Assembly: GCA_963920765.1 (NCBI GenBank)
Contig: OY987245.1
Span: 4,170,727 to 4,234,726, forward strand
Direction of reading: 5' to 3'
Source: Ulota crispa
Lineage: Eukaryota > Streptophyta > Bryopsida > Orthotrichales > Orthotrichaceae
DNA length: 64,000 bases
Shown: piece by piece, positions 6,344 to 42,529 of the stretch
Layout of the letters: each line of letters starts with the position of its first letter
Numbering within the stretch: position 1 is the first letter of the stretch
Made by a program: the position numbers and the translations under genes
The notes under the pieces: model-generated
Database searches by the model: none
What the model was told of the DNA's origin: nothing
Seen by the model: only the letters and a program-made list of their open reading frames with translations

Positions 6344-6347
6344 TTAA

Positions 6348-7295
6348 CCCTTAAAGAACCAAGTGGCTATTCAACAGCCACTTAAGAACTCGGGTAGGGT
6401 TACATGAAGTTAATTTTTGATGGATGTTTTCAAAATTGTTACATAAGGTGCAAAGATGTATCCCGTAAGTGGAGATGCAATTTTTTCTCCAATCAGATGC
6501 CTAGTTCAAAAGTTATGTTACCCAAAAGAATTTGGGCAACTTGGGCAGCTTGGGCATCTTTGGAGAATCTTAGGCCAAAACTCTCATCAACTTTTGAAAT
6601 TTGGCAAGTACGTAACTCAAAAAAAATAATGTACAATTGTCAAAAAAAAATAATTTAACTCTTACATCACATATAGAAGGGAGTCAAACTTTGTCAAATA
6701 TGTTTGGGTAGTTTCAAGAAAAAAAAACCTCTAACTTCAAGCCCTATTATCTTTCAATTTATAAATCCAAAGCTCTTGAAACTTTTTTTTTACATATTCC
6801 AAATGATTGTTTCTAACTTTTTACTATTTAGATTTTAAATAAAAGACTTCTTCATTGCACGAGAAATCATGAAAGAATGACTAATGTATTGCCAGTTCAC
6901 TAAGCCTTCTTGCACTACAGGGTGATTAGAATAAGCTAGATTTTATCTTTGCATCTGAAAATTTTCATGAGTGAACCTAACTTCATATACTTGTGAATGG
7001 TCAAAAAGCTCAAATTTGTGTAGAGCAAAAATTTTACTCTACGAAGGCTCAAAGTCTAGTGACCCTGTTTTGCACAAATGAAGAAAAGCTATTTTTCTCA
7101 CTTCAAATGTTATAATCTTACAATCCGCATGGTCAAATGGGCTGAATTTTTTTGCACATATTAACTTATCTGTTTCACACACTTTTGTACGGTTGGAATT
7201 GAGGAAAAAGGTTTTTATTTTCAATTTGGGCAAAGCACTAAAGGTTGGCAGTTTCAAAGATTTTTTCTCAAAAATCACCCTTGGTCCTTTAGGGG
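6348..7295. mobile_element. TTAA-flanked MITE, subfamily P4
   Basis: Left end TTAA then CCCTTAAAGAACCAAG; right end CTTGGTCCTTTAGGGG then TTAA. The TTAA pair (6344-6347, 7296-7299) is the target duplication. The right half is related in reverse orientation to the element starting at 18674 (shared stretches around AAGATTATAACATTC and TTCATAAGTATATGATG). There is no coding capacity. TTAA plus CCC-type ends fits piggyBac-like transposition. Confidence 0.78.
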
Positions 7296-7499
7296 TTAAA
7301 TAATGCCAATGGTCATTAGGGTATTTTCAAAAAATTGTCAATGACTATTTTTTGCCTACAAAAAAAATCTCATGATGCTGCAAAAATCCATGCATAGCGC
7401 CTGCCGCCTTCAACTCCAACCAAAAGTAGGATGAAACCTACAAGCTACAAATCTTTTTCAAAGAATGCCACACAAATAGTCAAGCATTGGTCGGAAAAC

Positions 7500-7850
7500 A
7501 AAAAAAAACCTTGGGGCCCAGGGCTTCCTTGTTGAGAGAGGAAAGGTAGAGACATGGTTGTTTTTTGTATTTGTTGAGGTAGAGCAACCCGCACCCTAGA
7601 CCGCACACACGTAAGGAAAAATTACCTATAATTAATTGGAAAGAATGAACAAGATGTGCATGTTCATTCCATATGTTTACTAATAAAAGCTACTTTCATC
7701 CAAAAACTCGCGACTTTGGTGTTTGTCAAAGGGGGGACTTAGGGAATTTATCCACTTTTTCCCTGAAATTTTCTTAGTGAATTGGGAGCAAGTGTCAATT
7801 TCAAGTAAGATTTAGGCAAATTTTCGCTAAGAAAAAAAACCCTGGGTGGA
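7500..7850. repeat. Dispersed repeat F, copy 1
   Basis: This stretch resembles 21855-22160 in the same orientation: both hold a GGTAGAGC(A/T)A block, an ATAATT-GGAA-GAATGA block, an ACTACTTTCAT block and a TTTAGGCAAA block in the same order and spacing. No terminal repeats were identified. Confidence 0.6.
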
Positions 7851-7855
7851 GAAAC

Positions 7856-8322
7856 GCCATATTTGTTAATTTGGGAATTATGTTTGAATTTGGGACTTCT
7901 AAAGGTTTAAGGTGATCTCCTTAAACCTAGCTTTAGGTTTGAGCAACATTTTTTGGTACACGTGCCCTCACCCCGTCACCCGAGAGGAGGAATTTGCAAG
8001 CAAAAAAATCTTAGTGGCTTAAATTGAATCTAATACCTTCAAATTTGGTTTAAGGTAGCTTTTTGGGTTTAACTCGTGAGCACCCAAAGTTATTTTTGGA
8101 TTTAGGAGAAAATTATATCCAAAAAAAGTGACCATAGGATTTGAAAAAAGACTACATTTTCTTCTGATGGGGACCAACCATGACTTTTTTCATTGTACAA
8201 TTATTTTTTTAAAATGAGATGGAATTGTGGGCCCCATGGACAGTATACTATCAATGAGACGATTAAGGGTTAAGGTGAAATTCAATTTGGGAACCGCGTT
8301 TTCCCAATTTAACGAATATAGC
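7856..8322. mobile_element. MITE family E, copy 1 (GCCATATT ends)
   Basis: The ends are GCCATATTTGTTAATTTGGG and, inverted, GCTATATTCGTTAAATTGGG. Shared interior sequence with 15263-15524 and 24018-24267 includes GGTTTAAGGTGATCTCC-like and TTTTTTGGTACACGTGCCC-like blocks. It has no open frame of interest. Superfamily unknown; no clean target duplication was found. Confidence 0.65.
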
Positions 8323-8362
8323 ATCTGATGCTCTAACTCTACTTGGCCAGCAGGCCTTCGCA

Positions 8363-8690
8363 TTATCGCATCAGTTCTCCGACGACTGCGAATTCCTGAA
8401 CGTCGGGATGCGTGCGAGAGATGTGCCGACGTCGAATCCGATTACTTGGAAGCCGCAATCGCGGTATCGCATGCAGGCCTGGATCGCCGGAACTCTCACC
8501 GCCAGCGCAGGTATACACGAGCGATGATCGAAGATCCGATCGATCGATGGATCGTCGCCTGCATGATTCTGTGGGCCTGGCTCGATCGCTGGCCGGGGAT
8601 CCACTTAGGGTTTCTAGAGTGCTGGATCTCGTGAAGTTGCGTATCGAAGTGACGTTCATTGTAAAGGTAACGTGTTCCCATCTATGACAA
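8363..8690. other. GC-rich low-repeat patch, function unknown
   Basis: The base composition is clearly richer in GC than the flanks, with many CG dinucleotides and GATCGATCGAT runs. Overlapping short frames are open on both strands, which is expected at this composition. It could be an old gene fragment or promoter, but no protein family is recognisable. Confidence 0.35.
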
Positions 8691-9950: not shown

Positions 9951-9954
9951 TTTC

Positions 9955-10360
9955 TGTACTTTTCATGACGGCTGATGCCGGGGCCACACAGGCCGAAACA
10001 GCCGGTTTGAAAAGGATGAAGAGGTAACTTGTGTTTTTGGGAATTTGGGAGACAATCATTTTTTCAAGGTTCATAACATTGTTAACCTTCACTAGGGTTC
10101 CTTTTGCTCCCCAAATATGAGGATCTCCCAGTGAATGTCATTTGTCAGATCTAAACCGATAACCAATCAATATTGAGAATTTTATAATTGAACCCTCCCC
10201 CAAGTATATAGGGAGGGATATTCCTCTACGGCTGGGGAGGAATAAATCTTGGTGAACAATGTTATGTTTCATCTATTGTTCTTTTAAAGATATCAATCTC
10301 TCCACCATTCTAGGGCAAAAGGTTTGAGATGCCAGCTTGTGGACCCTTAAAAAGGCTAGT
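9955..10360. repeat. Repeat J, copy interrupted by MITE H
   Basis: The flanks of MITE H (left to 10071, right from 10267) join into a sequence that matches 32785-33325 in reverse orientation. Shared blocks include GATGCCGGGGCCACACA, GGATGAAGAG(G)TAACTTGT, CATCTATTGTTC and CTCTCCACCATTCTAGGGC. MITE H therefore landed in an existing copy of J. Confidence 0.7.
10072..10266. mobile_element. MITE H, intact copy (195 bp)
   Basis: Terminal inverted repeats are CATAACATTGTTAACC and, inverted, CATAACATTGTTCACC. The interior holds a CTCCCAGTGAATGTCATTTG block and a CCCAAGTATATAGGGAGGG block. Two more copies lie at 28130-28308 (inverted) and 38120-39246 (interrupted). The intact TTAA near its left end is the empty counterpart of the insertion at 38134. 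Confidence 0.8.
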
Positions 10361-11059
10361 TTTGAACCGACCAAAAAAGTGGACATAGAAAATCAAAGAA
10401 TCCACTTTTCCACATTGAAGTAAAAGTCACCACCTGTTTTTTACTAACGCCATTTTGACATGCCAATGTATTTGGTGTAGCCCGGCCTTGAGATGGGCAA
10501 GTGTTGGAGGGCATCTGCTATTTGCCATTCTTGAGATCAAGAGAAAAATTTAAGGAGTGGTATATTTTTTTGCCACAATTTTACCTCATTTTATACTAGC
10601 CAACAAGTTAGCAAGTGGGTGATGGCACAATCAAGGTACCCAAAAGGGACTGCTTAAGTATGATTTGGCCTTATCTATGATACTTCTCATATGTATTACA
10701 TCCTACTAGATAGTGCTATGCTGTTAACATTTTGGCAAAAACATGCTTATACTTGTAGATTAGTAGAAAGAAAAGAATATATGTTTTTTTTTAAGATGAA
10801 TGTTATCATGTCTATATTAGTAATTTTGTGAGAAGTTCCAAAACTAACTCATTTCATTGAAATGCAATAAAGGACCCATGTAGACTACAAATTTGTTTGG
10901 TAGGATTTAGGAAAATGCATTTATAATTGTGCAAGCTTTTATGGTCCATGAAATTAAATTGTGTTAGGTCCATACATTATTAAAATGAATTATGGTGAAT
11001 TATTTAAACCAACTTTCATGTGGGTTTTTCCACACCCAATTACAAACATTAAAAATTTA

Positions 11060-11645
11060 CTCCCTCTGTCCCAATATAAAGCTCCAAATTAGGCATAGTT
11101 CTTGTCCCACTAAAAAGCTCCCTTTTGCTAATTTCAATTGTTGAAAAAGTGTTTGTCATGTCCAATGATCTCATGGGGGCAAGTTAAGCAATTAGAGAGC
11201 ACTCCTCTCCTAACAAACTTGGCCTTGCCCATATGAGGTACCATTGTTGCTACTAATCTTTAAATCATCAATAATGAGGAGCTAGCTAGCAACATGTACA
11301 AATATGGTACTTTTTGCATGGAATTTGGGTGCCTAAACGGCAACATCAAAGCTGGAGATTTTGGAGACATTTGGTAGATGGTATATTGATTCTAGAATGC
11401 ATGTGTCATCATTACAAAAACTAAAATAATGAGGAGCCGGCATTTTTCACAAACAATGCACAAAAATGGCACTTTTTGCATGGAATTTGGATGTCTAAAT
11501 GGCAACATAAAAACTTGAGATTTTGCAGATATTTGGTAGGTGGTATATTGATTCTAGAATGCATTTGTCACTAGCATAATGACTAAAAATACAGTTAATC
11601 CCTCATGAAGAAGTTTTTTGGAGCTTTATAATGGGACAGAGGGAG
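11060..11645. mobile_element. Stowaway-like (Tc1/mariner) MITE, 586 bp
   Basis: The termini are CTCCCTCTGTCCCA at the left and its inverse TGGGACAGAGGGAG at the right, with near-perfect match over 26 bp, flanked by TA on both sides. CTCCCTC plus TA is the signature of Stowaway elements. The interior holds a direct duplication (about 11293-11420 and 11455-11585, both with TTTTTGCATGGAATTTGG), which makes it unusually long for the class. Confidence 0.88.
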
Positions 11646-12009
11646 TATAATTTTTCTTTTTAAATGGCAAAAATATGCGCATATACTTGTTTCTAGGTGC
11701 AGATACAATCAAAATTATCAAAATGTTAATAATTCATTTCAAGGAGCCATTACAAATTACAAGTCAAAAAAAGTCCAGATCAAGACATTAGGGTTCTAAT
11801 CACCTTTACTAGTTTTATGGCATGAAAAAAAAAATCAAGAATGTCCTTTTAATGGAGGAAACACTTTCTCTTAACGTAAGGAAAGCTTAAAAAAATGTCT
11901 CATCACTTGCACATTTGATTTTTCCCCTATACATAAATAATTTGGACTCACTAGTGAGACAAGTGTCTTGTCCAATGATCTAGGGAGGTCATATTGAGGT
12001 ACCTTGATT

Positions 12010-13042: not shown

Positions 13043-13673
13043 CCCCTAAATGCCCAAGCGACCAGATTTGGGTATTTACAAAACTTTGAAGATGAATAAA
13101 ACATTGTCAAATCATTATTCTGTGTATTTGTTGTTTAATCTATGTTTGTTTTGAAGTCTATTTTCAACATCAAAAATCTAATTTTAAAAATGATTGTTGA
13201 TGATTTTTCAACTCAAGATTTTGTACAAGGGTGTCCACTGCAATCTTGGGTTTTTTAGTGTAGAAAGATCTTGAAATTGAGCCTCATACACTAGAGCTTG
13301 GAGAGAAATCCACATTAGAAATCCATTTAAAAATATATATAGGAGTAGATTTTAAAATCATAAATTGAGTAAAGTTAGACATGTAATGACTTTAAACCTC
13401 ATATTTTTTTGGTGACCAACCTTTTAGATTTGACATGTGAAATGAGCGGGATTGGAAGACTTCAAGTCACATTTGCAACACTCTCATGTTCAAACATTAT
13501 AATCTTTCAAACTATAAGTGATATTATTGTGTTTTTTTTTCCATATAATTTCTAACACGTTTAGTTTGAAAGTAACCATTGAAAAAACTTGATGAAATTG
13601 ATGAAAAGATTGGTTGGTTTTTCAATTTCATGGAAATTCCAAGAAGCTTAGATAGGCATTGGGCATTTAGGGG
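13043..13673. mobile_element. TTAA-flanked MITE, subfamily P3 (inverted copy)
   Basis: Left end CCCCTAAATGCCCAAG, right end TTGGGCATTTAGGGG, with TTAA on both sides (13039-13042, 13674-13677). The interior runs in reverse to 23178-23831 and 29612-30268 (shared GATTGGAAGA, TTTGACATGTGAAATGAG and TTTGAAAGTAACCATTG-like blocks). Non-coding. Confidence 0.85.
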
Positions 13674-14253: not shown

Positions 14254-15039
14254 CCCCTGAGCGCCCGCAGTGAAATCGAGAAAATGAGGTTAGGAGGGAC
14301 CATGCTTGAAAACATTGTACGTCTCGAGCTGAGAACTTAGATTGGGGAAGATTCACCTTTGAAATAGTAAAAAGGGTGCTTGATGTACTTGACCAAAAAT
14401 TTGATTAACTTTTGACCACACCGTTTTGGAGATTATAATAGGCAAAGTACATTTGACTATGTGGCAATTGGCCAATTTTGAGGGGGTCTGTGGCTATGGA
14501 TGTAAAAATTCATGCCTTAAAGGAGGTTCCTTTTGATGAAATTTAGGGAGGGGGTACAATTTACAAGTGTCTCGCTTGCTACCAAATTTGGTGATGTTCT
14601 AACATCCGCAATGTGCTTTTTTAGAGGCCCAAAGTTGCAAGGCTCACACGACATGGTGGATGATAGACAAGGTACGGGTATGGCTTTGACCTCTACAAGG
14701 GCATGGCTCCCAGTGGTACATTTGCAAAATCCTTTTCCAATCTAAGGCATGTGTGCCAAAACACCCCTAATAGTATGGAACCGGACATAGTTGGTGGCTC
14801 TATCCTCGCACCTAAACCCTAAATCGCATGAAATGAAGTTTTGGAGTACTATTGTCATACTTGACTTGCACAATCCATGCTTGTACAAATGGTGAAATCC
14901 CCATCACCCACTTCATGGCATGAGAGTAGTTACCCTTGACCAAGTGCACTTTTCTAGGTAGTACTATTTGATTTGGACCTAATTTTGAAGAAAATTTAAT
15001 TCTAAGGGATGATATTATTGCCCTTCGGGCGCTCAGGGG
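14254..15039. mobile_element. TTAA-flanked MITE, subfamily P6 (CCCCTGAGCGCCC ends)
   Basis: Left end CCCCTGAGCGCCCG, right end CGGGCGCTCAGGGG, a perfect 14-bp inverted repeat, flanked by TTAA (14250-14253, 15040-15043). The same end type caps the 241-bp element at 25291. The interior is unlike the other subfamilies and non-coding. Confidence 0.85.
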
Positions 15040-16122: not shown

Positions 16123-17053
16123 CCCCTAAAGGCCCATTGTCCCTTCAGGGGACAGGCTAGACTTTGGGCATGTACCTATGGCTAAACTACTTTGTGTGAT
16201 TTTCTGAAACTTTTCTTAAAGGTGGGGAATTCAAAGACCTATGTGGGCATCTAATTTTTTCTTCATTCCTACATTTGATGAAGAAGTTATGCATGAATTT
16301 ATGAAAATTTGGGGAGGACTACCTATCTAGATAGCCCAAAAACTTTTTTTAATTTTACTTTTAAAAAAACAAAAATTTGAACTTGGTTCTTTAGATTTTT
16401 TTATACTTGAGAAGCTTTGAATCATTTGATTTCAATTAATGAGATGAAAGTTATGAGGAGTTTTTGTTTGCAGGCACTTATGGATTCTTTACTCTAAAAT
16501 AAACTTTGAAGTCCATTATTTTACTCAATTTTCAATATTTTAGAAAAAAGTTAGACCAAAGGAAGTAGCTTGTTTATTGCAACATTATGACCTTTTAGAT
16601 TTGCATATTTCATTTTGATAATTAAATTCTTAACAATTTAGTGTTTTGACTCATTGTCTACCTCTTTATACTTACAATTTTTTCCTATGTGTTATATAAT
16701 TCCAATTGATTTGAAAATTCTCCCACACATACCTAACTTGATCTCCTACATGGAAAAAATAAAGTGCAACTTAGGATAGAGCAATTTTTTTGTTATAAGA
16801 GTGGCCAAAAGCTTCTGAAATTTTTGGGCAACATGGAAAAAAACTTTTTTTTTCACTTTAGATGTAAATATCTCACTCCTCTCCATCTAGAACAAGCAAA
16901 TTCTTTTCCCACAAGCATCTCTTCTAGTTACGGGCAAAATCCTATGGTTGGATCTCCCAAGAACAAAACATAAAATCATTTTTCACTAAACCTCCTGAAA
17001 ATGTCATTTTCTAGTGATTTGATTAAAAAAAAAAGGGCTTGGTCCTTTAGGGG
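16123..17053. mobile_element. TTAA-flanked MITE, subfamily P1 (inverted copy)
   Basis: Left end CCCCTAAAGGCCCATTGTCC, right end TTGGTCCTTTAGGGG, flanked by TTAA (16119-16122, 17054-17057). 931 bp. The interior runs opposite to 27049, 33353 and 35875, sharing CATGTACCTATGGCTAAAC, the GGGGAATTCAAAGA-CTA block and TCCCACACATACCTAACTTG. Non-coding. Confidence 0.87.
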
Positions 17054-18673: not shown

Positions 18674-19620
18674 CCCCTAAAGCCCAAAGGGTGTTTAAGA
18701 AGGAAGAAGTCCAAAACTGCCACTTTTTCATAATTTACTCAAAATCCAAAACATTTTTTTTTTTGAGTTTCAATCTAACAAAAGTGTTGTACACAAGTAA
18801 GAAAATATGAAAAAAAAATTCAACCCATTTAATCCTTTGGATTAAAAGATTATAACATTCATAATTCCACAAAAAAAAAATATTCTTAGCCCTGCCTTAA
18901 AGGGACAATAGGCTTTGAGCCCCTTTGGCTGAGTTTTGTGTTATACACAAACTCAAGGACTTGGTGCATTCATAAGTATATGATGTTAAGTTAAATTTTG
19001 CAAAATTTTAGATGCAATTGAGATGTCTAACTTACTCTAAATGTGCCTGCAATACAAGGTGGTCAATGAAACAACTATACATTAGCCAATCTTTAGAAAT
19101 TTCTTGCATAGTCCAAGTTTATTTATTTTCAAATCCAAATGACAAAATGATGTAACGCCATATCTTCTACAAGCATAATTTTTTTTAAGGAAAATTAACA
19201 AAGCATGCAAAATTATGCTAATTCAAGCTTTGCCACTTTCCATAATCTTCAAATTTATTTCATGAATAAAGCAAGATGGAAAGGAAGATTGACTTCCTAA
19301 ATGCCATCTTGTTCAAAAAAGAAAAAAACCTTGTAAACCCCATGCTTCAACAATAATCTACTAAACTTCTCTGATTTAGTGAACTAAACAAATTAATAGC
19401 TGCTAAAAAAATTCATTACAAATAGCTAATATTGGCTCCCAAAAAATGCTAAAAATAAAATAAAAGTAAAAACCATTTACATGTTCTTCCCTTTGGGGGT
19501 GAAGATTATCATGGCATCTTTCAGAACATCTCCTATGGCCGTACATATATTTGCCATTGCAATTTTGGTCAAATGTGTAGGGACATGTCTTGCAAACCAC
19601 ATAATTTCCTCTCAAACTAG
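18674..19620. mobile_element. TTAA-type MITE, subfamily P4, right end not found
   Basis: The left end TTAA-CCCCTAAAGCCCAAAGG is clear. The first 500 bp follow the inverse of 7295-6800 (AAACTGCCA, AAGATTATAACATTC, GGCTTTGAGCCCC and TTCATAAGTATATGATG blocks). No matching right end is visible; the end given here is an estimate from the length of the 6348 copy. Confidence 0.55.
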
Positions 19621-20314: not shown

Positions 20315-20540
20315 CCCTTAAATGTCCAAAAGGCCCTTTGCGACCAATACAATACGGGGTATTTTTCTTGTATTTGGAATGGATCGACACCTCTACTACA
20401 TTTGAGATCAACAAAGAAGTTGGAATATAGATGAACGCGGTTCTAGTGAGATATTTAAGATCCCAAGTTATAATTTCTTGTTGGTAGCAAATGCCAAATA
20501 TATGGCAATGTATCTACTATGCCCTTGGGACGTTTAAGGG
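20315..20540. mobile_element. TTAA-flanked MITE, subfamily P5 (226 bp)
   Basis: Left end CCCTTAAATGTCCAAAAGG, right end CTTGGGACGTTTAAGGG, flanked by TTAA (20311-20314, 20541-20544). The interior recurs at 12010-12225 without ends. A compact complete element. Confidence 0.8.
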
Positions 20541-20726: not shown

Positions 20727-21494
20727 CCACTAAAGGACCAAAGAGCCCAATATGGCCAAATGGAGTTTTTGGAGGTGTAAAAGTAAACAAAAGAGGAGTT
20801 GCATGCTCAAGTTTTGGTCTGCCACTCAAGTCTAAATGGTGCTAAAAGTCCAACAAAACTTTTGGATTGGCTTGTTGTTCCTTGAAGCCTCTAGAGTTTG
20901 CACCCAAACATTTGAATATACTATTTTTAATATTAAAACTATTAGTGGGAGTGTATGTAGGGATTGTACATTGCATTGTGGATGGAGGAATTTTGGATGG
21001 GATGGGTTGGAAGCCCACACTCCCAAGTATAGGGGAGAAGGTTGGTGATGTGTCACTTTGTTTTCTCTCAATTGGGCAAGGTTTTTGTAGCTCTATAGTA
21101 GTGAGCCAGCTAAATCCACTTACTTTAAATGACCATAAGTTTTGGAGTTTTTTTTCCATTTGAGGATTTTTTTTTTCCATCAAGTATAACTAGACACGGT
21201 CTCATGGGATCAACCATTAGGGAATTTTTTTTTGGGAAAAAATCACATCAAAGTCCAAAATCCATATTGTGAACTGCTATCCAAATTAACAAATATGAGA
21301 TTCTCAATGGTGGGGATTTTGCAGATTTACTTGAATTTGAAATCAGAATAGATTTAACTTTTGATTTATAGTTGGGTATAGAATGAACAAATTTGATTGT
21401 GTGAATACTTGTTCAATTTTCTAAAAATTGAGGGAATGTGATGAAGGTTCCATATTGGAGGTATGCTAGATTTTCTTAGCAAGACGTTTAGGGG
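20727..21494. mobile_element. TTAA-flanked MITE, unassigned subfamily
   Basis: Left end CCACTAAAGGACCAAAG, right end CGTTTAGGGG, flanked by TTAA (20723-20726, 21495-21498). Ends are more diverged than in P1. The frames open in the middle on both strands are overlapping and unlike any protein known to me. Confidence 0.68.
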
Positions 21495-23035: not shown

Positions 23036-24012
23036 GAAAAATTTCACAGATAACATAGAAATTTGCCATATTTACATGGGTACCCTTGCTTTTTTAAAAC
23101 TACACAAATATCCTTGGTCCATAACTTTTAGGAGCTTGTTTTGTTATGTGCGCTACTTCTTTCATGACCAATGTTAACCTCTCAAGGCCCATGCACTTTC
23201 TCGAGTTTCTCGTAATTTGTTCTTGGATGAACAAAATGTCAACATTTTGATAAGTTGCATCAAAATTTAAAAAAAAAAAATTGTAACCATAAAAATTCAA
23301 ACTAGATATGTTAGAGATCACATAGGAAAAGAAAACACAACAATATCACTTATGGATTGAAAGATTATAACATTTGATCAAGAGGGTGTTAAAACCTTGA
23401 AAGTGATTTGAATTCTTTCAATCCTCTTTTCACATCTCAAATTTAAAATTGAGGATATCAAAAAAATATGAGTATGTAAACTACAACACGTATAACCCTA
23501 ACTAGTTTATGGCTTCTTAAAATCTACTCTACAACTTTTTAAAATAAATTTCTAATGTGATTGTTTCTCCAAGCTCTAGTGTACATGAGGCTCATTTCCA
23601 AGAGCTCTCAATACTAGAAAGTGAAGATTTGCAATGGACACCCTTGCACAAAATCTTAAATGAAAAAAATCATAATTAGTCATTTTCAAAATCAAACTTT
23701 TGATACTAAAACAAGACTTCAACAAGAATTTTAAAAACAAAAAAAGCATTGTAATTAGTCATGAAGAGAATTTAGGCATCCCAAATTACAAACAAGGAGG
23801 GACAGTTTTGGTCCCCTTGGGCCTTGAGGGTTTAAAACAAGGAGTGCAATAGAACAAAAATGAAGCAACGTGCACACAAGAGAGAAAGAAGTGACATGAA
23901 CAATATAACAAATGTTTGAAAATTACTAACCAAGGATATTTGTGTAATTTCTGAAAACCAAGGGCATCTATGCAACTATCACAAACTTTACGGGTATTCA
24001 TAAAATTTTCCA
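23036..24012. mobile_element. Inverted-repeat element L, copy 1, split by a TTAA MITE
   Basis: The left arm (to 23173) and right arm (from 23836) pair: CACAAATATCCTTGGTCC on the left, ACCAAGGATATTTGTGTAA on the right, plus GTAGC-ACTTCTTTC against GAAAGAAGTGAC. Element 23178-23831 sits in the middle. Copy 2 at 24611-25286 lacks that insertion. Confidence 0.68.
23178..23831. mobile_element. TTAA-type MITE, subfamily P3, inside element L
   Basis: Left end CCTCTCAAGGCCCATG after TTAA (23174-23177), right end TTGGGCCTTGAGGG followed by TTTAA. Interior matches 29612-30268 in the same orientation (ATAACATTTGATCAAGAG-like, TCAATCCTCTTTTCACATCT). It interrupts L copy 1; L copy 2 reads through this point near 24765-24800. 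Confidence 0.75.
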
Positions 24013-25290: not shown

Positions 25291-25531
25291 CCCCTGAGCG
25301 CCCCAGCACCCCAAATCTAACCTCTCCATTTTTAAAAATACGTTAACTTTGACCATTATAATCTTTTGATCCGTGCAATGAATGTTTATCAAATTTATCA
25401 TACATCTGCAAACCCTAAACATTGTGCAAGATCAAAGACTAACTCTTCTAAATGTTATTTTTAAACTTGTAGCGTCAGATTGATTGCAACGAGGTCCAAC
25501 CCAGCACGAATTTGGGCTGGGCGCTCAGGGG
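25291..25531. mobile_element. TTAA-flanked MITE, subfamily P6 (241 bp)
   Basis: Left end CCCCTGAGCGCCCCAGC, right end GCTGGGCGCTCAGGGG, flanked by TTAA (25287-25290, 25532-25535). Same end type as 14254-15039 with a short interior. Confidence 0.87.
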
Positions 25532-27048: not shown

Positions 27049-27979
27049 CCCCTAAAGGCCTAAGCAGTTTTCTCCAATGAAAGTCACTGTTAACTGCCAC
27101 TTTGGGAGGAATGAGTAGAAAAGTAGGAAATAAAATTTGTTTTGCAAATCCAACCATAGGATCTTGCCTTAGACTAGAAGAGATACTTATGGGAAAAAAT
27201 TAGGTCATTCTAGCTGGAGAGGAGGGAGATATTTAGATCTAAAGTGAAAAAAAGGTTTCTTTTGTGCTGTCCAAAAATTTTTAGAAGCCTTTGTCCACAC
27301 TCACATGAAAAAAATTACTCTACACAAAGTTGATGTTTATTTTTTCCATGTAGCAGACCAAGTTAGGTATGTGTGGGAGAATTTTCAAATCAATTGGAAC
27401 TATACAACACATGGGGGAAAATAGTAAGTAAAAAGAAGTAGAGAATGAGTCAAATCACTAGATTGTTAAGATTTTAATTATTAAAATGAAAAAATGAAAA
27501 TCCCAATGGTTATAATGTTGTGATAAACAATTACTTCCTTAGGTTAAGTTTTTTTTCCAAAATATTGAAAATTGTGGAAAATAAAGGACTTCAAAGTTTA
27601 TCTTAGAGTAGAGAATCCATAACTGCCCACAAACTAAAACATCTCATAACTTTCATCTCATCAATTGAAGTTGAATGATTCAAAGCCACCCACATATAAA
27701 AAAATCTAAAGAACCAATTTCTGGTTTTTATTTTTAGAAAATACCAAATTTTAAGAAGTTTTTGGGCTGCCCGGATTGCCCTCCCTCCCTTGGGCAGCAG
27801 AAATTCTTGCATAACTTCTTTGTCAAATGTCAAAATGACAAAAAAATTAGATTCCCGAGTAGGTCTTGGAATTCCCCACCTTCCATAAAAGTTTAAATTT
27901 TTTATAAAAACTAGATTAGCTATAGGTACATGCCAAAATCTCAACTGTCCCTCGGGGGGGACAGCTGGGCTTTTAGGGG
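27049..27979. mobile_element. P1 MITE with a CTAG target duplication
   Basis: Left end CCCCTAAAGGCCTAAGCAG, right end GGCTTTTAGGGG. The flanks are CTAG on both sides (27045-27048, 27980-27983) instead of TTAA. A non-canonical but identical tetranucleotide supports a true 4-bp duplication. Interior collinear with 33353 and 35875. Confidence 0.83.
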
Positions 27980-28096: not shown

Positions 28097-28692
28097 GGAA
28101 TTTGTATGTGCACACTTGGGGTTTAGTACATAACATTGCACGAGGGTTTATTCCCCCCCCCAATTGTGGAGGAATATCCCTTCCTATATACCTAGGGGAG
28201 TATTTAGCTATAAATTCTCAATGTTAATTGGTCCTCGGGCAGAGCTGGCAAATGGCATTCACTGGGGGAGCAAGAGGGACCCCTCTAGTGAAGGTTAACA
28301 ATGTTATGATATATGCACACCAAGGGAGGGGTAAATCTTAGATATTCATCATCAACAAGCTAAATTTGGAATATTTGAATTCAAATTTGGATTTAGAGAC
28401 CTTGGTTTAGTTTAGAACCACAAAAAATGATACAATTAAACAACATCTATTGGAAAAACTTAGCTAGGGGCCAAATGATTACTTTTATCCTTATTTGTAA
28501 AAAAACTAAGCTTTTCCACAAGGTGTTGTTCAATTATATATTTCTTTGCAGTTCTAGACTAATTCAAGGTCTCTAGATCCAAGTTTGAATTCAAATTTTC
28601 CAAATTTAGCTTGTTGATGGTGAATATATCTAAGATTTACCGCCTCCTCCACTGTGTGTATATCAAACCCCGAGTGTGCACAGATATTTCCC
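28097..28692. mobile_element. MITE G, copy 2, interrupted by MITE H
   Basis: Left end GGGAATTTGTATGTGCACAC, right end GTGTGCACAGATATTTCCC. The interior (ATCATCAACAAGCTAAATT and its mirror) matches 22295-22703. Segment 28130-28308 is foreign. Confidence 0.72.
28130..28308. mobile_element. MITE H, inverted copy nested in MITE G
   Basis: Left end CATAACATTGCACGAGGG, right end GAAGGTTAACAATGTTATG. Reverse of 10072-10266, with the GGCAAATGGCATTCACTGGG and CTAGTGAAGGTTAACAATG blocks. It is a second uninterrupted example of the site used by the insertion at 38134. Confidence 0.78.
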
Positions 28693-28763: not shown

Positions 28764-29167
28764 CCCCTAAATGCCCATTGTCCCTTTGGGGGACAAATGG
28801 AATTTTAGGCATGTACCTATGGCTAAACTACTTTGCATGATTTTTTGAAACTTTTATTCAAGGTGAGGAATTCAAAGATCTACTTGGGAATATAAAAAAA
28901 TTTTCATTCCGACATTTACTGGAGAAGTAAAAAATGAATAACTGAAAAGCAGGGGACTTTGGGCTGCCCAAAGTCCCCTATTTTTCAGTTATTCATTTTT
29001 TACTTCTTCAATAAATGTTGGAATGAAGATTTTTTTTATATTCTCAAGTAGATCTTTGAATTCCTCACCTTGAATAAAAGTTTCAAAAAATCATGCAAAG
29101 TAGTTTAGCCATAGGTAAATGCCCAAAATTCCATTTGTCCCCGAAAGGGACAATGGGCATTTAGGGG
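28764..29167. mobile_element. Palindromic P2 element with ATAA target duplication
   Basis: Left end CCCCTAAATGCCCATTGTCC, right end GGACAATGGGCATTTAGGGG. Flanks are ATAA on both sides (28760-28763, 29168-29171). The whole 404 bp is an inverted repeat: the two arms meet at GGGCTGCCC near 28967. Strong hairpin potential, no coding. Confidence 0.87.
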
Positions 29168-29611: not shown

Positions 29612-30268
29612 CCTCTAAATGTGCAAGGCTTTTTTGAGCTTCTTGAAATCCCATGAAAATGAACACTCAACCAACCTTTTCATAAATTTCATCAAGTTTT
29701 TGTTAATTGTAACCATACACATTTAAACTAAACATGTTAGCAATTGCATAAAAAAGTAAAACAAAACATTATCATTTATAGTTTGAAAAATTATAATGGT
29801 TAAATTAGAGAGGTGTTAAAATTGCAAAAGTGACTATAAGCCTTCCAATCCTCATTTTGCATGTCAAATCTAAAAAATTGGTCACCAAAAAAGTATGAGG
29901 TTTAAACCTTTAAGGTCATTACATGTCTCACTTTAATCAATATACAGCTTTCAAAATATACTCCTATTTTTTTAATGAACTTCTAATGTAGAGCTTGTCT
30001 CCAAGCTTTATTGTATTTGAGGCTCATTTTGAAGATTTTTTAACACTAGAACCCCAAGATTGCAATGCACAATGCACACCCTTGTACAAAAAAATGAGTA
30101 TAAAAATTATTCACATTCATTTTCAAAATCAGGTTTTTAGTGTTGAAAATAGATTTCAAAACAATCTTGTACTGAAACAAAACTATTAAAAAATAATGAT
30201 TTGATAAGATTTTATTCAATTTCAAGGTTTTGTAAACACCCAAATTGGGGGCCTTGGGTATTTAGGGG
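29612..30268. mobile_element. TTAA-type MITE, subfamily P3
   Basis: Left end CCTCTAAATGTGCAAGG after TTAA, right end CCTTGGGTATTTAGGGG before CTAA; the one-base mismatch in the duplication suggests age. Interior as in 23178, and inverse to 13043. Confidence 0.78.
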
Positions 30269-33325: not shown

Positions 33326-33352
33326 GCACTAGGCGCCTTGGTTGGATATTAC

Positions 33353-34263
33353 CCCCTAAAGGACCAAGCCTTTTTTCTGCCACTTCTAGGAGGTTTAGAA
33401 AAAAGGGATTTTATGTTTTTTTTTTGGCAAATCCAACTGTAGGATCTTGCCCCAAATTGGAAGAGGTACCTGTGGGAAAAAAATCAGCTCATTCCAAATG
33501 GCAAGGAGTGAGATATTTACATCTAAAGTGAAAAAAAAGGTTTTTTTCCATGCTGCCCAAAAATTTCAGAAGCCTTTGACCACTCTTATAACAAAAAAAT
33601 TACTCTACCCAAAGTTATGCTTTATTTTACCCATGTAGGAGATCAAGTTAGGTATGTGTGGGAAAATTTTCAAATCAATTGGAACTATACAACACATGGG
33701 AAAAAATAGTAAGTAAAAAGAAGTAGAAAATGAGTCAAAACACTAAATTTTTAAGAATCAAATTATGGAAATGAAAAATGCAAATCCCAATGGTGATAAT
33801 GTTGTGATAAAAAATCTAGTTCCTTTGGTTTTTTTTTTTTTTTCTAAAATATTGAAAATTGAGTAAAATAATGGACTTCAAAGTTTATTTTAGAGTAGAG
33901 ATTCCATAACTGCCCACAAACAAAAACTCCTCATAACTTTCATGTCATTGATTGGGATTGAATGATCCAAAGCTTCTCATGAATAAATACATCTAAAGAG
34001 CCAATTTCAAATTTGAGTTAAAAAAAAATAGTTTTTAAAGAAGTTTTTGGGCTGCCCTAAAGGGCAGTCCTCCCCAAATTTTCTAAAATTCATGCATAAC
34101 TTATTTGTTAAATGTTGGAATGAAGAAGAAATTTGATGCCCATGTAGATCTTTGAATTCCCCACCTTCAATAAAAGTTTCAGAAAGTTACACAAAGTGGT
34201 TTAGCCATAGGTACATGCCCGAAGTCCAACTTGTCCCCCAAAGGGACAACGGTCCTTTAGGGG
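33353..34263. mobile_element. P1 MITE with a TTAC target duplication
   Basis: Left end CCCCTAAAGGACCAAGCC, right end CGGTCCTTTAGGGG, flanked by TTAC on both sides (33349-33352, 34264-34267). 911 bp, collinear with 27049 and 35875. The frames open inside are not conserved between copies. Confidence 0.86.
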
Positions 34264-34353: not shown

Positions 34354-35201
34354 GGGCATCTCCACCGGTGGCTCAAATACGCTCAAAGTGGATGAATAGT
34401 GTTGAGGCCTCTCTCAAAACCCTCTCAAGACATTTTATCTTATCGTGTTTAGCAAGGGCCCTTCAAGACACTATTTATCACTATTCATCCTAAGTTTAGT
34501 GAAATTTATCCTCTACTTTCCTTGATAAGTAATCAAATGATTATTTATGGGGTGCGTTAACCTCTAAAGGCCCAAGGGCCCTTTTGGGGGACAAATGGAA
34601 TTTTGGGCATGTACCTATGGCTAAACTACTTTGCGTGATATTTTGAAACTTTTATTGAAGGTGTGGAATTCAAAAATCTACGTGGGAATGTAATTTTTTC
34701 TTCATTTTGACATTTATTAAAGAAGTTAAAACGAAACCACACCTACCCGCAAACTAAAACCTCTCATAACTTTCATCTCATCTATCAAAATTGAATGATT
34801 CAAAGCTCTCCACGTCTATATAAGTCTAAAGAACCTATTTCAAATTTTTATTTGAAAAAAATGCAATTTTTAAAGAAGATTTTGGGCTGCCCAGAGTCCC
34901 TTGTTTTTCAATTATTAATTTTTAACTTCTTCAATAAATGTCAGAATGAAGAACATATTACATTCCCACGTAGATCTTTGAATTCCACACCTTGAATAAA
35001 AGTTTCAAAAAATCATGCAAAGTAGTTTAGCCATAGGTACATGCCCGAAATTCCATTTGTCCCCCGAAGGGACAATGGGCCTTTAGGGGTTAAAGTGCCA
35101 GGTTAGCTTTTTGAAGAGTATGGGTGGAGATCAAGGAGCTTAAGGCCACTTCAGAAATAACTGAGAACCTTTTGAACGTGCTAGGACCGGTGAAGATGCT
35201 C
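34354..35201. mobile_element. Tourist-like MITE interrupted by a P2 element
   Basis: Left end GGGCATCTCCACCGGTGG, right end ACCGGTGAAGATGCTC followed by TAA; same ends as 17319-17766. The left flank is TGA rather than TAA. The P2 element 34561-35089 sits inside, so this copy is the older of the two. Confidence 0.65.
34561..35089. mobile_element. Palindromic P2 TTAA element (529 bp)
   Basis: Left end CCTCTAAAGGCCCAAGGGCC, right end CAATGGGCCTTTAGGGG, flanked by TTAA (34557-34560, 35090-35093). Both arms carry the ATGTACCTATGGCTAAAC block facing inward. Confidence 0.84.
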
Positions 35202-35874
35202 TAAGTAAGGTAGTATGCTCTTAAACCTGTCACTTTAAGGATTGGTGCCTTTCATGGGCTTTTCAAGACAAGAAGATTTTTGTCTAATTTCAGAAAAAGA
35301 GAAATTGATGCCAAATGTAACACAATTTTCTTCATGTTTTTTGAAGCATTATTGAATTGCCAACAAATTTTTAAAGCTTTTAGTGGTAGGCACCCAATTT
35401 TGTGACCCAGAAGTTTCCCAAAATTTGTTCAATTGCAAATTGTAAAGAGATGAGGGGAAATTAAGGAATATGATTGGATCTTGCAAATTACAATAAAATA
35501 CACCTTTTCTTCAATGGCTAAACAGGTCCATTCAAGAACCACTCCATGTGCATTCTTAAGCTAATTATAGGAACGCTTTTGAAGAGAGGGTTGCGATTCA
35601 AGCATACTAGCTTACTCCCCTAATTTGGAATTGACCATTTTCATTCCTTTTGGTGTTCTTGGACTACACCGGGATCTTTGAATCCAAAAGCAAATTTTAT
35701 CTCCCAATGGTATAAACTTAGACTCCTACAAATTTTAGAATGTGAAACAACAAACCACCTTAGCTCCACCGAGAGCCCCACAAGCTCACAAAACCCAATC
35801 ATTTGGGCAAGGACAATTAGGGAATCATAGTATATCTAGTGTTGCACTTCAAACTTGACACTTTAAGTCTTTAA

Positions 35875-35954
35875 CCCCTAAAGCCCCAAGCCCTTTTTTT
35901 TTGGTGTGGAAGTCACTAAAAACTGCCATTTTTGGGGGAATGAGTTAAAAAGTA

Positions 35955-35989
<35 letters not shown>

Positions 35990-36825
35990 AAAATTCAACC
36001 ATAGGATCTTGCTCTAGACTATGGTAGGTACTTGTGGGGAAAAAACCAACTCATTTTAGATGTAGAGGAGTGAGATATTGACATCTGAAGTGGGAAAAAA
36101 GAGTTTTCTTCCGTATTGCCCAAAAAATTTAGAAGCCTTTGACCACTCTTAGAGTAAAAAAATTACTCTACATACTCAAAGTTGAAGTTTATTTTCTCCA
36201 TGTAGAAAACCAAGTTAGGTATATGTTGGAGAACTTATAAATCAATTGGAAGTGTACAACATACTTCAATAAATCTTTGAATGCCAAAAGGTTTTGAAAT
36301 TTGCAAATACATGAGGCAAAATTGGAGGCTTTATGTAAAATTCAAAAAGTCAAACACTTTGATCAAAATGGTGAAAATCAAGGAATTTTAACCTACTACA
36401 ATTTGAGAAAAAAAAGAATAAAAAACACTCAAATTGCTCAAAAATTAAAGCGCCAAATTTTACAAGGGGCAAAGGGAATGGAGGTTTGGGAGTTTCCCCA
36501 AGATGGGGCACCTTCCACTCCACTCTCCTTTGTCTAAGTGTCCACACATTGTGTCCACAAGGGCTGAGTTAGACCTTCTTTGGAGTCAACACCCACTTAC
36601 AAAGAAGAGGCCACTTGCCCAAATTGCCCCTTCTTGCCTAGTTTAAAAAAATTCTTGATAACTTCTTCATTAAATGTTGAAATGAAGAAAAAATTAAATG
36701 CTTGTGTAGGTTTTAGAATTCCCCACCTTCAACTAAAGTTTCAAAAAAACATGCAAACTAGTTTAGCTATAGGTACGTGCCCAAAATCCATTTGTCCCTT
36801 AAGGGGACAATTGGGCCTTTGGGGG
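35875..36825. mobile_element. TTAA-flanked MITE, subfamily P1
   Basis: Left end CCCCTAAAGCCCCAAGCCC, right end TTGGGCCTTTGGGGG, flanked by TTAA (35871-35874, 36826-36829). It contains the 41-bp poly-T run. The right third is unlike other P1 copies between about 36270 and 36640, so it may be a composite. Confidence 0.82.
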
Positions 36826-37354: not shown

Positions 37355-37359
37355 TTAGT

Positions 37360-38118
37360 TTCCTAATTTCTCATATTTGGGTCGGTACCTCATCCAAACC
37401 ATTTATGTGTCATTCAAAAATATTCAAAAAATTCAAAAAAATTCAGTTGGGTACAATTGAACTCCTCTAAATTGATATGGTTGGGATCCCAAAAACTAAA
37501 TTACTTTAAATAAGTTATTAGTTGATTACCTTGAGGTTAGTGCCCGGATACCACCAAGAAGTATTATTATTATTGAATGAATTATTTTGGTTTATGACTG
37601 ACGTATGGTCTGACATTAAAATTTGTGTTATACATTAGTTTGCAAAGCATATTAGCTTACAGGAGTTCTACTGTAGTAAGTAAACCTGGGCACTCCCCGT
37701 TCATTGGTGCAGAGTGCAGTGCAGGGGCACCACACAGTGACGCAGTGATCCAATCGAGTGAATCGACTAAACTGAAGAGAGTAGTGGTGGAGGGAGAGAC
37801 GTGGTCCAGTCATGCCAGGGCCTGGTTCTCCGGGGGAGCCAGTGCGAGGACCACTAATTAATGAGTAAGCAGTCTAAGTTAAGATTAATCAGGGGATGCG
37901 GGGAAGGCGGGAGTTTCGTGAGCGGCAGCGGAGACCTCGCCTGCCTTGGTCTGCATGTTTATCGATCACGTTCTTGCGGGAGACCCGGTTCTAACTCTTT
38001 GCTGATTCATTTACTGCTGCCCTGCACTTGCCCCTCGTGTTCTCTGCAAGGAAGCCACCAATGCTGAGCCTAGACTCTAGAGTGCCATTTGCAGTTTTAC
38101 TGTCAAGAATTGCCATGT
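37360..38118. other. Unassigned stretch, partly low-repeat
   Basis: 37640-38090 is GC-richer and looks single-copy within the window. Two consecutive short plus-strand frames abut at 37861 but resemble no protein I know. Confidence 0.35.
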
Positions 38119-38119
38119 T

Positions 38120-39246
38120 CATAACATTGTTAACCCTTTGGAGATCACCGAACCATATTTTGGTTCAGCAGGGTGGTTTTTGACCTATAGAGTAAAATTG
38201 CTCAACAATTTGGAAACAGTTCTTGAAGAACACTTGTGGTCACAAGAATTTTATATCCAACCAAAAAAATAACAATAAAATTGGGTATATGAGTTGATAA
38301 ATAATGGTATTTATACGGCATGGTCTCAAAATACGTATCCATATTTGGTCAAAGATGGATCAAAGCAACAACACAATACATCAAACATCCAAAAAGAATG
38401 CCACATTTCAATGGTGCGGTCTTAAAAAATTCAAATTGCTTAAGAAATATGCTTGTATTGTTTCTCTATACGGTAGTAGTACAATTGTAGTATTTGAAAA
38501 TCTACTAAAATTGTGCTATCATTTCATCTTTAAAATTGTGCTATCATTTCATGTTTAAAATTTGTCATCTTACGTTTGAGGCCAATTCTTGATTGTTTTC
38601 ACCAATTGGATTTTCCATAGCATTTATCAAATTTCTTGTAAACCTGTTTTAGGATAGCAAATAAAGTGGGTTTTTTATCCTTTTTGTCCACTTAGCTACA
38701 CCTTGAGATTGATATTTTATCCATTTTGTGTGAAACCAATCTTATTGGAAAGGTGGGAAAGCTTACTTTCTAGGGATATAAGGCTCTTCTCAAGCAAAGC
38801 TTGTATGAAGCAATAAGATCCAAAACCACACAAGCATGAAAACTAGATATTTTCCACTTGTAGCTCACTTTATCATTATAATATTTCACCTCCCACGGTA
38901 GATCTCGTTGAAATTTTGATGGTTTATAGTAAAGAATGTGTTCTTTCCATTTGTACGGTTGGATTATGCAAACAAAGTCCACATTTGATTTGACTACACA
39001 TTTCTATTTACTACCCTTGTTTCTGGTGGATTTTGTGAAAATGTGTGTGGTCTTTAAAGGGTTAACCTTCACTAGGGGGGCCTTTTGCTCCTCACAATAT
39101 GAGGATCCCCAGTGAATGCCATCTGTTAGCTCTAGTCCTCACCAATTAGCTTTGAGGATTTATAACTATATTCTCCCCCCATGTATATAGGGGGGAATAT
39201 CCCTCCACGGTTGGGGAAAGGAATAAAACCGGGTGAACAATGATAT
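38120..39246. mobile_element. MITE H, copy interrupted by a TTAA element
   Basis: Left piece CATAACATTG with TTAA at 38130-38133; right piece from 39062 reads TTAACCTTCACTAGGGGGG and continues through the GAGGATCCCCAGTGAATGCC and CATGTATATAGGGGGGAAT blocks to GTGAACAATGATATG. Removing 38134-39061 and one TTAA gives the arrangement of 10072-10266. Confidence 0.83.
38134..39061. mobile_element. TTAA-specific element inserted in MITE H (928 bp)
   Basis: Ends CCCTTTGGAGATCACC and, at the right, GTGGTCTTTAAAGGG; TTAA on each side (38130-38133, 39062-39065). The host sequence exists uninterrupted with a single TTAA at 10072-10266 and 28130-28308. The interior is not shared with P1-P6 and no transposase is visible. 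Confidence 0.85.
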
Positions 39247-39676
39247 GGTCTGATTACAATTAGCTCTTTCTTTTTTAGTTTCACCTTCAAATTTCAAACT
39301 TTAGCAAAATTTTGAACCCTCTAAGAAGCTCTTAACTTTTGACCCTCTTAACATTTATTGAACCTAGGTTGGGTACATTAGAAGCATGTGTGAAGTGTCT
39401 CTAGAGTGTATGATTTTTCAACTGTAACCCACAAAAATCATGTATATAAAATGGTAATCTCTTCCTTACATGAAGGATTTTAACCATATGTACAATCCAA
39501 AACAATACAAAAGGCATTGCACTCGTAAAATATGTAAATATACTCACTAGTCCTTATTCAAGTACTTCATTCATTTATGCAAATAGAGTAAAATAGAATT
39601 TGTGATTCTATTTGTATAGCTAGACCCATTGTCCAATTGGAATGCCATAACAATAAAACTCTCATGATTACATTAA

Positions 39677-40402
39677 CCCCTAAATCCTTGAGTGTCCCCT
39701 CGGGGGACAAATGAGATTTTGGGCAGGTACCTATGACTAAACTACTTTGTGTGATTTTTTGAAACTTTTATGGAAGATGGGGAATTCAAAGATCTGTGTG
39801 CACATCTAATTTGTTTTTCATTCTGACATTTTTTGAAGAAGTAAAAAATGAATTTCTGAATTTTTTGGAGATGGGGCAGTCTGGGCAGCCCAAAAAATAT
39901 TTTAAAATTTACATTTTTTTAAAATAAAAATCTGAAATTGGTTCTTTGAGTTTATATATACATGGGAAGCTTTGAATCACTCATTTCCAGTAAATGAAAT
40001 GAAAGTTATGAGGACTTTCAGTTAACTAGTAGATATGGCTCCATATCTACCAGTTAACTGAAAGTCCTCATAACTTTCATTTCATTTACCGGAAATGAGT
40101 GATTCAAAGCTTCCCATGTATATATAAACTCAAAGAACCAATTTCAGATTTTTATTTTAAAAAAATGTAAATTTTAAAATATTTTTTGGGCTGCCCAGAC
40201 TGCCCCATCTCCAAAAAATTCAGAAATTCATTTTTTACTTCTTCAAAAAATGTCAAAATGAAAAACAAATTAGATGTGCACACAGATCTTTGAATTCCCC
40301 ATCTTCCATAAAAGTTTCAAAAAATCACACAAAGTAGTTTAGTCATAAGTACCTGCCCAAAATCTCATTTGTCCCTCGAGGGGACACTCAGGGATTTAGG
40401 GG
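39677..40402. mobile_element. Near-perfect palindromic P2 element (726 bp)
   Basis: Left end CCCCTAAATCCTTGAGTG, right end CACTCAGGGATTTAGGGG, flanked by TTAA (39673-39676, 40403-40406). The arms, about 340 bp each, match almost base for base and meet at a short centre near 40030-40045 (AGATATGGCTCCATATCT). This is the longest and cleanest hairpin in the window. Confidence 0.9.
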
Positions 40403-40409
40403 TTAAACT

Positions 40410-41930
40410 CAAAGGGAGGGCAAAAATAAGAGATAATTGGTTTGTTTGTTACAATCAATACATATCTTGGGATCTTTTTTGAGACTTTAGGGGGGGGGAG
40501 AGGGGCTCTTGGAGTGCTCAAATTTTTATGTGGTAAGGTAGCAACATCCATAAGCGTTGTGTCCCCATGGCCGTCACCTAACAATGGCAGGGGCCAATCA
40601 ATAAAAAAACAAATGGTTGTGAGTGACTAAGTGATGGTTGTGGGTGACTAGCATGAGGTTTTGAGTACCCATCTCACTATTTAAGAACCAATCAGCCTTA
40701 TTTTTAGCATCTTTTACACATGGTTCCTACAATTTCAGTGATTGTGGACTTTGAAAAAATCTTTGTGAACAAATACTTGCAGTTGGAACCTTGAAATTGA
40801 TGCTAATATTTTTGGTTTCCACTTCCTAACTTATAGTATTTTTTTCAAAGTTAGTCAATTGTTTTAGCTACTCCAAAACCCTTATTTCCACCCTTATGGG
40901 TGCGCCTACCTTACATAGTGTTAGAAGGGGTAGTTTGAGAGGCTCAAGATAGAAATGCAATAGAAAGCATTTGGCATGGTAGCTAGACTCAATCTATGTT
41001 ATAGTACTTTTCATCCATTTTAGTAAATGTAAGATTGAATCAATGATTTCTTCAATGTAGCTATGAACTTATTCATTTCTTTCTCTCTTACATGCCATTT
41101 AAAATGTATCAACAAACCAACAAACTAAATTAAAAATAAGAAATGTTTATGCAAAACATCTTCAATGCAAAATGTACTTTGTCAAGTACATAAAGAGGGA
41201 ATTAAAAGTTGTAATTGGTCACAAATTGAATATCTTTTTCCAACTATACCAAAATTGATGTAAAGTGCATGGTTGGGGATGGGTGCTAATACCTTAGAGC
41301 ATTTGTAATGTACAAAACATAATCATCCAACATTACTTATTCATGTAGCTCTTCATAATCCTAAGAATCTACAATGGCCAACAAAGTTCTTTTCATTAGG
41401 CCAAACAAATCTTTCAACAAACTTTAGTCAATGCCACCATTGCAATTGCACCAAATGAGATACAAAAGCAATGTAGAACATAGTTTTTCAAATGTAGATC
41501 ATAAACTTGTCAAAGTTTTTTATATATTTTGCTTTTCCTACCATGAAGAAATGAGACCAACTCTAAGTTCAATTGCTCTCTTCAAAGTACAAAAGTATCC
41601 CCAATCATTAAACATTATTGGAACATAACAAATAAGTATTCACTAAGGCCATCACAAAATGGAATCACAACAAATTATCCATTATAGGGTTGTTGAAGAA
41701 AACCACAATTTCATTGAGTATACCCTTTACCTTCATGACGTCATTGTTCCTTACTATACATATCTAATTTAGAACTACCCAATCCCATTTGCTTTAGGAT
41801 AACCTAAAACTACCGCAACAAATGTCTACAATTTTACATGTGGGGTAATATGGTCATAAACCTAATCCACCTAGTCTTGAGATGACTCACAATTGTATTT
41901 AGAGATTGCTTTTAGACCATCTTATGGTTT
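40410..41930. other. Unassigned AT-rich stretch
   Basis: No gene, paired ends or RNA recognised over 1.5 kb. Short open frames look random. Confidence 0.45.
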
Positions 41931-41937
41931 CACTTAA

Positions 41938-42161
41938 CCCCTAAAGGGCCCTTGGGCTCTAGAGCTACGGTACCAAATACAATTGCAACCAATATACAGA
42001 AGTTTGAATTAGTTGGAATTCAAGTGTTACAACCATACATATTGAAAGGTTGTATGATGGTGGGTGCATAATTTTTTTTGGAAAGCCCTCAAAGCAACTC
42101 AAACATGTATGTACATACGACCATACATACGGCCGCAAAGGGCTTTCAAGCCGTTCAAGGG
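41938..42161. mobile_element. Short TTAA-flanked MITE (224 bp)
   Basis: Left end CCCCTAAAGGGCCCTTGGGC, right end AAGCCGTTCAAGGG, flanked by TTAA (41934-41937, 42162-42165). The internal GTATGTACATACGACCATAC patch is partly palindromic. Nearest TTAA element to the HUB gene. Confidence 0.75.
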
Positions 42162-42529
42162 TTAAATTGTATAGAAAAGTTACGATAATTCCTCAAAAAC
42201 AAAAACAAAAACAATTGAGAATTTAGGATTTACTTGTCTACAAGTGGGAAATAACCTTCAAATACAACTCTGACTTTACTAATGCACAAAATAACCTATA
42301 AGTACAATTCCAACTGTCTTAATGCACAGGTTGGGGTTGGTAAATTTTACCCTACACCGCACAAAATGAGAGTCCAAAACTGAAATCATGCAAGCTTTAC
42401 AATTAGACCAAGCAACTTGCAGTTACATGAGATTGAACTCACAATTTGCTTCAGTGAAAACGTTCTACGTAAGTCGAGATCAACTGCAGGCCTGGAATTC
42501 AGTGGACTGAGCATATGTTAATAGAGTCT

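Follow-up and report, generated by a model that had tools for sequence, protein, structure and literature searches.

The 64 kb window of the moss Ulota crispa analyzed here (OY987245.1, 4,170,727-4,234,726; G000:C4:4170727-4234726) carries a dense set of short repeats with inverted ends next to TTAA. We conclude, with a probability of about 95%, that these repeats are non-autonomous members, that is, miniature inverted-repeat transposable elements (MITEs), of piggyBac-superfamily DNA transposons. Genome-wide searches covered the 274.8-Mb assembly, and fetched sequences are cited by their L numbers.

A strict scan of the window, which required identical 4-bp NTAN flanks, an element start of CC, at least 12 of 16 matched terminal bases and a length of up to 2.5 kb, returned 15 end pairs; 100 dinucleotide shuffles averaged 0.04 pairs and never exceeded 1. 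Two pairs were dropped, 34561-36825 as a cross-combination and 23112-23935, with ATAT flanks, as a judged chance pair. The 13 elements kept are flanked by TTAA in 10 cases and by CTAG, ATAA and TTAC in one case each, identical on both sides, which agrees with an earlier note on this DNA that had described flanks of TTAA or an identical variant. The inverted ends start with CC(C/T), as in piggyBac. With looser settings the scan returned 28 pairs, but shuffles averaged 7.8 and reached 17, so the weaker elements have no statistical standing of their own. Four of them (20727-21494, 29612-30268, 41938-42161 and 61516-61791) were accepted, mostly by similarity to copies elsewhere, and among these only 29612-30268 is present in the loose list. 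The total is thus 17 elements and 11,068 bp (Table 1), which confirms the observation of the earlier note, whose figures were 18 elements and about 11.7 kb. Its division into at least six subfamilies is reproduced by all-against-all comparison, but its end formula, CCC(C)TAAA(G/T)G(C/A)CC, does not fit every end, the exceptions including those at 14254 and 25291, which start with CCCCTGAGCGCCC, and that at 38134, which starts with CCCTTT.

The same ends are abundant throughout the genome. The exact end CCCCTAAANGCCCA occurs 7,259 times (3,635 + 3,624) compared with 0 for the control, and TTAA directly precedes 6,051 of these ends (83%), as expected from the TTAA specificity previously claimed. 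Another end type, TTAACCCTTAAAYGTC, is present 986 times, and its control once. Four of the 6,051 TTAA-preceded ends lie in the window, by our own arithmetic roughly threefold the average for the genome. Among 40 fetched copies, which were taken from the best matches and not at random, a script found TTAA on both sides in 14 of 20 from the 234-bp family and 18 of 20 from the 734-bp family (32 of 40 together). Six of the remaining eight look like point changes or an end that is off by one base, and two (L039 and L048) are ambiguous.

To examine insertion sites, the two flanks of each of 63 elements were joined and searched for in the sequences collected; the set comprised 17 window MITEs, 40 fetched copies and 6 elements with a transposase. 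A match spanning the junction was found at another place for 9 of the 63; six of these were inspected, and three have a single TTAA. Window positions 10069-10266 (81%) and 28129-28309 (74%) match the joined flanks of the 38134 element and have one TTAA; on its left side the match covers only ~17 bases. Single-TTAA empty sites are also seen for L044, whose flanks match L027 and L023, and for L035, whose flanks match L042. For the CTAG element (27049-27979), at least 19 matches at 81-89% extend over most of the joined flanks; three fetched relatives are gap-free, and their single 4-bp unit is CAAG, TAAG and CAAG, not CTAG. In L023, one MITE is interrupted by another element at TTAA (the right copy being TTCA), and the target TTAA is kept by most of 12 sibling copies and altered in the window copy and L044. 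Elsewhere, end-to-end elements or GGGG-TTAA ends have one TTAA in common (L075 at ~1270-1510, G000:C5:24.84 Mb; left flanks of L041, L042, L059 and L069), as if old target duplications had been reused as targets.

A search of the genome with the PF13843 profile (DDE_Tnp_1_7, piggyBac transposase) gave at least 120 rows, the best at 1.3e-73 (116 of 528 candidates scored). We fetched 20 transposase loci of ~10 kb each, 13 of them top-ranked and seven picked mainly for few or no stops. Pfam assigns the piggyBac transposase domain to the reading frames of L024 and L027, and single stop-free rows cover at least 80% of the profile in L024 (30-349), L027 (2-340) and L030 (3-290). The DDD catalytic triad is present: the first two Asp residues are invariant in 15 aligned rows, and the third is kept in L024, L016 and L019 and lost in L027, the five other moss rows not covering this position. 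The predicted fold of the moss transposase matches piggyBac (6x67) and piggyBat (9c0f) with an identity of 21-22% in structural alignment, and its sequence also matches both. A putative Cys-rich C-terminal domain is visible by eye in the frames of L016 and L017, two of the 20 fetched loci. No named plant homologues appear among the 25 and 30 protein matches listed, though the database has moss proteins; annotation frequently masks transposons, and their absence from these matches therefore carries little weight. In L028 (4250-5938), two stop-free rows jointly cover profile positions 30-349 with one split, which could be an intron. This copy may have decayed less than most others, or the host may have co-opted it.

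Some of these transposase genes lie within ends of the same class as those of the MITEs. Two families of transposase-bearing elements, 5.0-5.3 kb long, have copies that can be aligned from end to end: the alignment of L014 with L023 covers 5,029 bp (90.5%), and that of L031 with L033 ~5.2 kb (~89%). In both families, homology runs from TTAA (TTCA in L023) followed by CCCCT to GGG (GAG in L033) followed by TTAA, and the flanks are unrelated. For L017, L018 and L019, the ends were initially located by end matching alone. A search with the right end of L017 (40 of 417 candidates scored) gave the element itself, two longer matches (82% and 68%) and 37 matches to the right end only. The latter match only the last 113-224 bp of L017, and all stop within two bases of its TTAA end. 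Four high-ranking sequences of this group were fetched, and all four are without the ~5 kb interior of L017; they match it from 173-241 (the fetch limit) to 555-586 and again over the last 114-135 bp, their own left ends lying beyond the fetched sequence. These deletion derivatives are a direct link from a transposase gene to MITEs. The 29612 window element, like that at 13043, has 35-48 terminal bases in common with the L017 group. Further reading frames of 354-532 amino acids lie upstream of the transposase on the same strand in L017 (5902-7116), L018 (2815-4410), L019 (2249-3340) and L027 (2429-3490). At the DNA level, those of L018 and L027 have an aligned start, and both frames contain basic motifs of the PKRKY type in repeated form. 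Pfam found no family in the five upstream frames submitted (L017, L018, L019, L020 and L027).

Kolobok and Sola3 elements also duplicate TTAA on insertion, and TTAA alone cannot tell these superfamilies apart. The window repeats could thus be Kolobok or Sola3 MITEs, with the piggyBac genes of this genome as unrelated bystanders; however, we consider this very improbable. The same class of TTAA-CCC ends encloses piggyBac transposases, with boundaries set by copy alignment, and the deletion derivatives of one piggyBac-bearing element, L017, are spread over the genome, by which this alternative is largely refuted for the L017 group. The transposases of Kolobok and Sola3 differ from those described here, and the evidence against them comes from the piggyBac links, no search for their transposases having been made. 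An origin from Tc1/mariner-type elements, with a TA duplication and the outer T and A of TTAA inside the inverted repeat, would suit the palindromic TTAA and the TAN that precedes 6,626 of the 7,259 exact ends (91%), but its chance is very small, since identical CTAG, ATAA and TTAC pairs around single elements need a 4-bp duplication, the three empty-site relatives of the CTAG element carry one 4-bp unit, the TA-only duplication of Stowaway is not what is found, and the transposases are piggyBac.

Several observations weigh against the piggyBac assignment. The window MITEs have at most ~20-48 terminal bp in common with L017. A pair of TTAA-flanked terminal inverted repeats (TIRs) spans the locus in 13 of 109 overlapping control windows compared with 5 of 20 transposase loci, and looser TIR settings gave 14 controls against 7 loci and then 38 against 9. 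On the 13 control pairs, TIR pairs alone were rejected as proof of parent elements, and aligned copies and deletion derivatives were used instead; because chance pairs are common in MITE-rich DNA, the ends of L018 and L019 stand as assignments by end matching only. The majority of transposase rows are broken, with 10 of the 120 free of stops, and in L027 the third Asp is replaced by Asn. The joined flanks of L058, L061 and L067, three of the six inspected, match repeats with no clear TTAA. Lastly, 14 control genomes gave no PF13843 match, but also none for GRAS regulators, of which this genome has 62 rows, so this control is weak. The earlier note had called the elements piggyBac-like, a view that a parent with an unrelated transposase would have contradicted; the elements found with such ends carry piggyBac transposases. 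Its statement that a TTAA-specific transposase was or is active is supported for past activity only, and the immediate parents of the window families were not found.

Under the piggyBac assignment, parents of 5.0-5.7 kb encoding a DDD transposase between ends of the form TTAA-CCC...GGG-TTAA would have given rise to short elements by internal deletion, with the ends retained. The transposase would bind the ends of the short elements in trans and excise them at TTAA, and reinsertion at a new TTAA would duplicate the four bases, with occasional use of CTAG, ATAA and TTAC sites. By analogy with insect piggyBac, excision would pass through a hairpin and be seamless. Most source copies are probably dead now. 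Of this scheme, the ends, the duplicated four bases, the empty sites, the transposases lying between such ends and the deletion derivatives of one parent are observed directly.

The palindromic 734-bp family also shows an unusual relation between its arms. We compared 21 copies, the window copy and 20 fetched copies that are best matches to it. The mean difference between arms is 3.3% within a copy and 8.0% between copies; the two arms of a copy are mutually closest in 18 of the 21, with one tie and two copies in which they are not. Substitutions found in both arms and private to one copy number 77, in 19 of the 21 copies; a further 91 are confined to a single arm, whereas 154 occur in both arms and are shared with other copies. 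The arms agree at 231 substitutions, compared with 49, and at most 68, under random pairing. This within-copy agreement is unlike the prediction of simple master-copy spread; the comparison suggests that the arms are homogenized, and arm-to-arm correction through a hairpin may be responsible. An artefact of assembly polishing, in which short reads of one arm map to the other, or many separate source lineages could instead produce the agreement. The 154 shared both-arm substitutions are what separate lineages would give, and the fetched copies are not a random sample. However, the 77 private both-arm substitutions are spread over nearly all copies, and separate lineages likewise require arms that are alike within each lineage; we give these explanations an appreciable chance, though less than an even one. 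More speculatively, and with less than even odds, mosses may hold an old and diverse plant-side branch of piggyBac with a longer architecture (the extra upstream frame) that would be a leading source of MITEs, whose palindrome arms would be kept alike by hairpin-linked repair at transposition or replication. Much smaller palindromes also occur: L081 (21-99) and L082 (21-99; G000:C1:241512 and 531562, respectively) contain 79-bp elements, both TTAA copies included, that are near-pure hairpins of -38.8 and -52.1 kcal/mol. L083 and L084 are close to them in size, with flanks of TTGA/TTAA and CTAG/CTAC.

Table 1. Elements and related sites in the window (positions are those of the 64 kb window)
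Feature	Position	Strand	Remarks
TTAA MITE, 948 bp	6348..7295		Ends CCCTTAAAGAACC / CCCCTAAAGGACC; full-length copy in L029, 84% similar
Empty-site relative of the 38134-39061 insertion	10069..10266	+	Uninterrupted ATTGTTAACC, one TTAA
TTAA MITE, 631 bp	13043..13673		Ends CCCCTAAATGCCCA; 35-48 terminal bp in common with transposase-bearing L017 and its deletion derivatives
TTAA MITE, 786 bp	14254..15039		Ends CCCCTGAGCGCCC; strict scan
TTAA MITE, 931 bp	16123..17053		Kin of the 27049 and 33353 elements; strict scan
Left end of an additional TTAA element	18674..18681 (first 8 bases; right end not fixed)		67% over 488 bp to reversed 6348-7295
TTAA MITE, 226 bp (234 with flanks)	20315..20540		At least 39 other genome places at 89-93%
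Possible TTAA element	20727..21494		Weaker ends CCACTAAAGGACC / CCCCTAAACGTC the sole basis
TTAA MITE, 241 bp	25291..25531		Ends CCCCTGAGCGCCC; strict scan
MITE, 931 bp, CTAG on both flanks	27049..27979		At least 19 repeat copies, uninterrupted, match its flanks when joined
Palindromic MITE, 404 bp, ATAA on both flanks	28764..29167		Strict scan
MITE, 657 bp, flanks TTAA/CTAA	29612..30268		77% to 13043-13673, same family; loose scan
MITE, 911 bp, TTAC on both flanks	33353..34263		Strict scan
Palindromic TTAA MITE, 529 bp	34561..35089		Strict scan
TTAA MITE, 951 bp	35875..36825		Strict scan
TTAA MITE, 928 bp	38134..39061		Strict scan; empty site elsewhere in window
Palindromic TTAA MITE, 726 bp (734 with flanks)	39677..40402		Two 366-bp arms, 98% alike; at least 39 other genome places at 90-94%
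TTAA MITE, 224 bp	41938..42161		Full-length relative in L026, 81%
Probable TTAA element, 276 bp, weaker ends	61516..61791		Right 177 bp 73% similar to L019

The window also contains a multi-exon gene for a BRE1/HUB-like ubiquitin ligase (43462-51751, minus strand). Its joined exon pieces are 75% identical to Ceratodon purpureus, 70% to Physcomitrium patens and 58% to Sphagnum, with Ceratodon nearest; the host is thus a moss, in keeping with the plant genome assumed in the earlier note. These matches rule out a grass host, which a Stowaway-like CTCCCTCTGTCCC motif and the size of the genome had suggested. An element at 11044-11661 has CTCCCTCTGTCCC inverted ends next to TA and resembles a Stowaway/mariner MITE. 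Decayed pieces of long terminal repeat retrotransposons (integrase and reverse transcriptase), with a 200-base N run among them, occupy 437-4881, and a tandem repeat at 56726-57387 has long repetitive open frames (SICPPI, PYPYAPLF-like) in three plus-strand frames. An Rfam scan of the window gave no matches.

The moss elements resemble piggyBac of Trichoplusia ni and piggyBat in the TTAA duplication, the CCC-starting ends, the DDD transposase and its fold (predicted in moss), and the putative Cys-rich C-terminal domain of L016 and L017 may be a further likeness. They differ in the low transposase identity, in the host and in their length of 5.0-5.7 kb, which includes the extra upstream frame of no Pfam family (L017, L018, L019 and L027); the insect piggyBac element is ~2.5 kb. 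Stowaway and Tourist MITEs of plants are also short and non-coding, with inverted ends and a high copy number, but unlike the moss MITEs they have 2-3 bp duplications and other transposases. Animal piggyBac-type MITEs are described, for example, from corals (PMC2872659). Such animal elements are likewise short, TTAA-flanked and thought to be mobilized in trans; the moss set differs in its host and its thousands of ends.

Jumping genes of the piggyBac type are mainly known from animals. Plant cases have been mentioned before: piggyBac is described as occasional in plants and little studied, with red algae as the example (PMC12732532, 2025), piggyBac-like elements are placed in fungi, plants and metazoans (PMC8086355), piggyBac is said to have been isolated from insects, fungi and plants (PMC10813416), PiggyBac is counted as one of seven angiosperm MITE superfamilies (PMC10004981), and 206 fragments (16.4 kb) of Oryza coarctata are labelled PiggyBac (PMC10576809). 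The words piggyBac and TTAA are absent from the main text of a 207-genome survey of plant MITEs (PMC12550479). A partial literature search, judged mostly by titles and the starts of abstracts, gave no recognized report of native piggyBac transposons in mosses, and priority is not to be judged from it. Bouallegue 2017 reportedly surveyed piggyBac-like elements, and the paper on the Ceratodon genome reportedly describes an unplaced DNA transposon group that might be related. The piggyBac kind is already known; the moss system, as read from sequence, would be one for which that partial search located no account.

With over 7,000 exact piggyBac-type ends and transposase copies or fragments numbering above 100, this genome shows that a land plant can carry a large native piggyBac load, which standard plant annotation may leave unnamed. 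The moss genome offers native plant transposases for study, and the apparently homogenized palindrome arms would make the evolution of hairpin-like MITEs directly testable.

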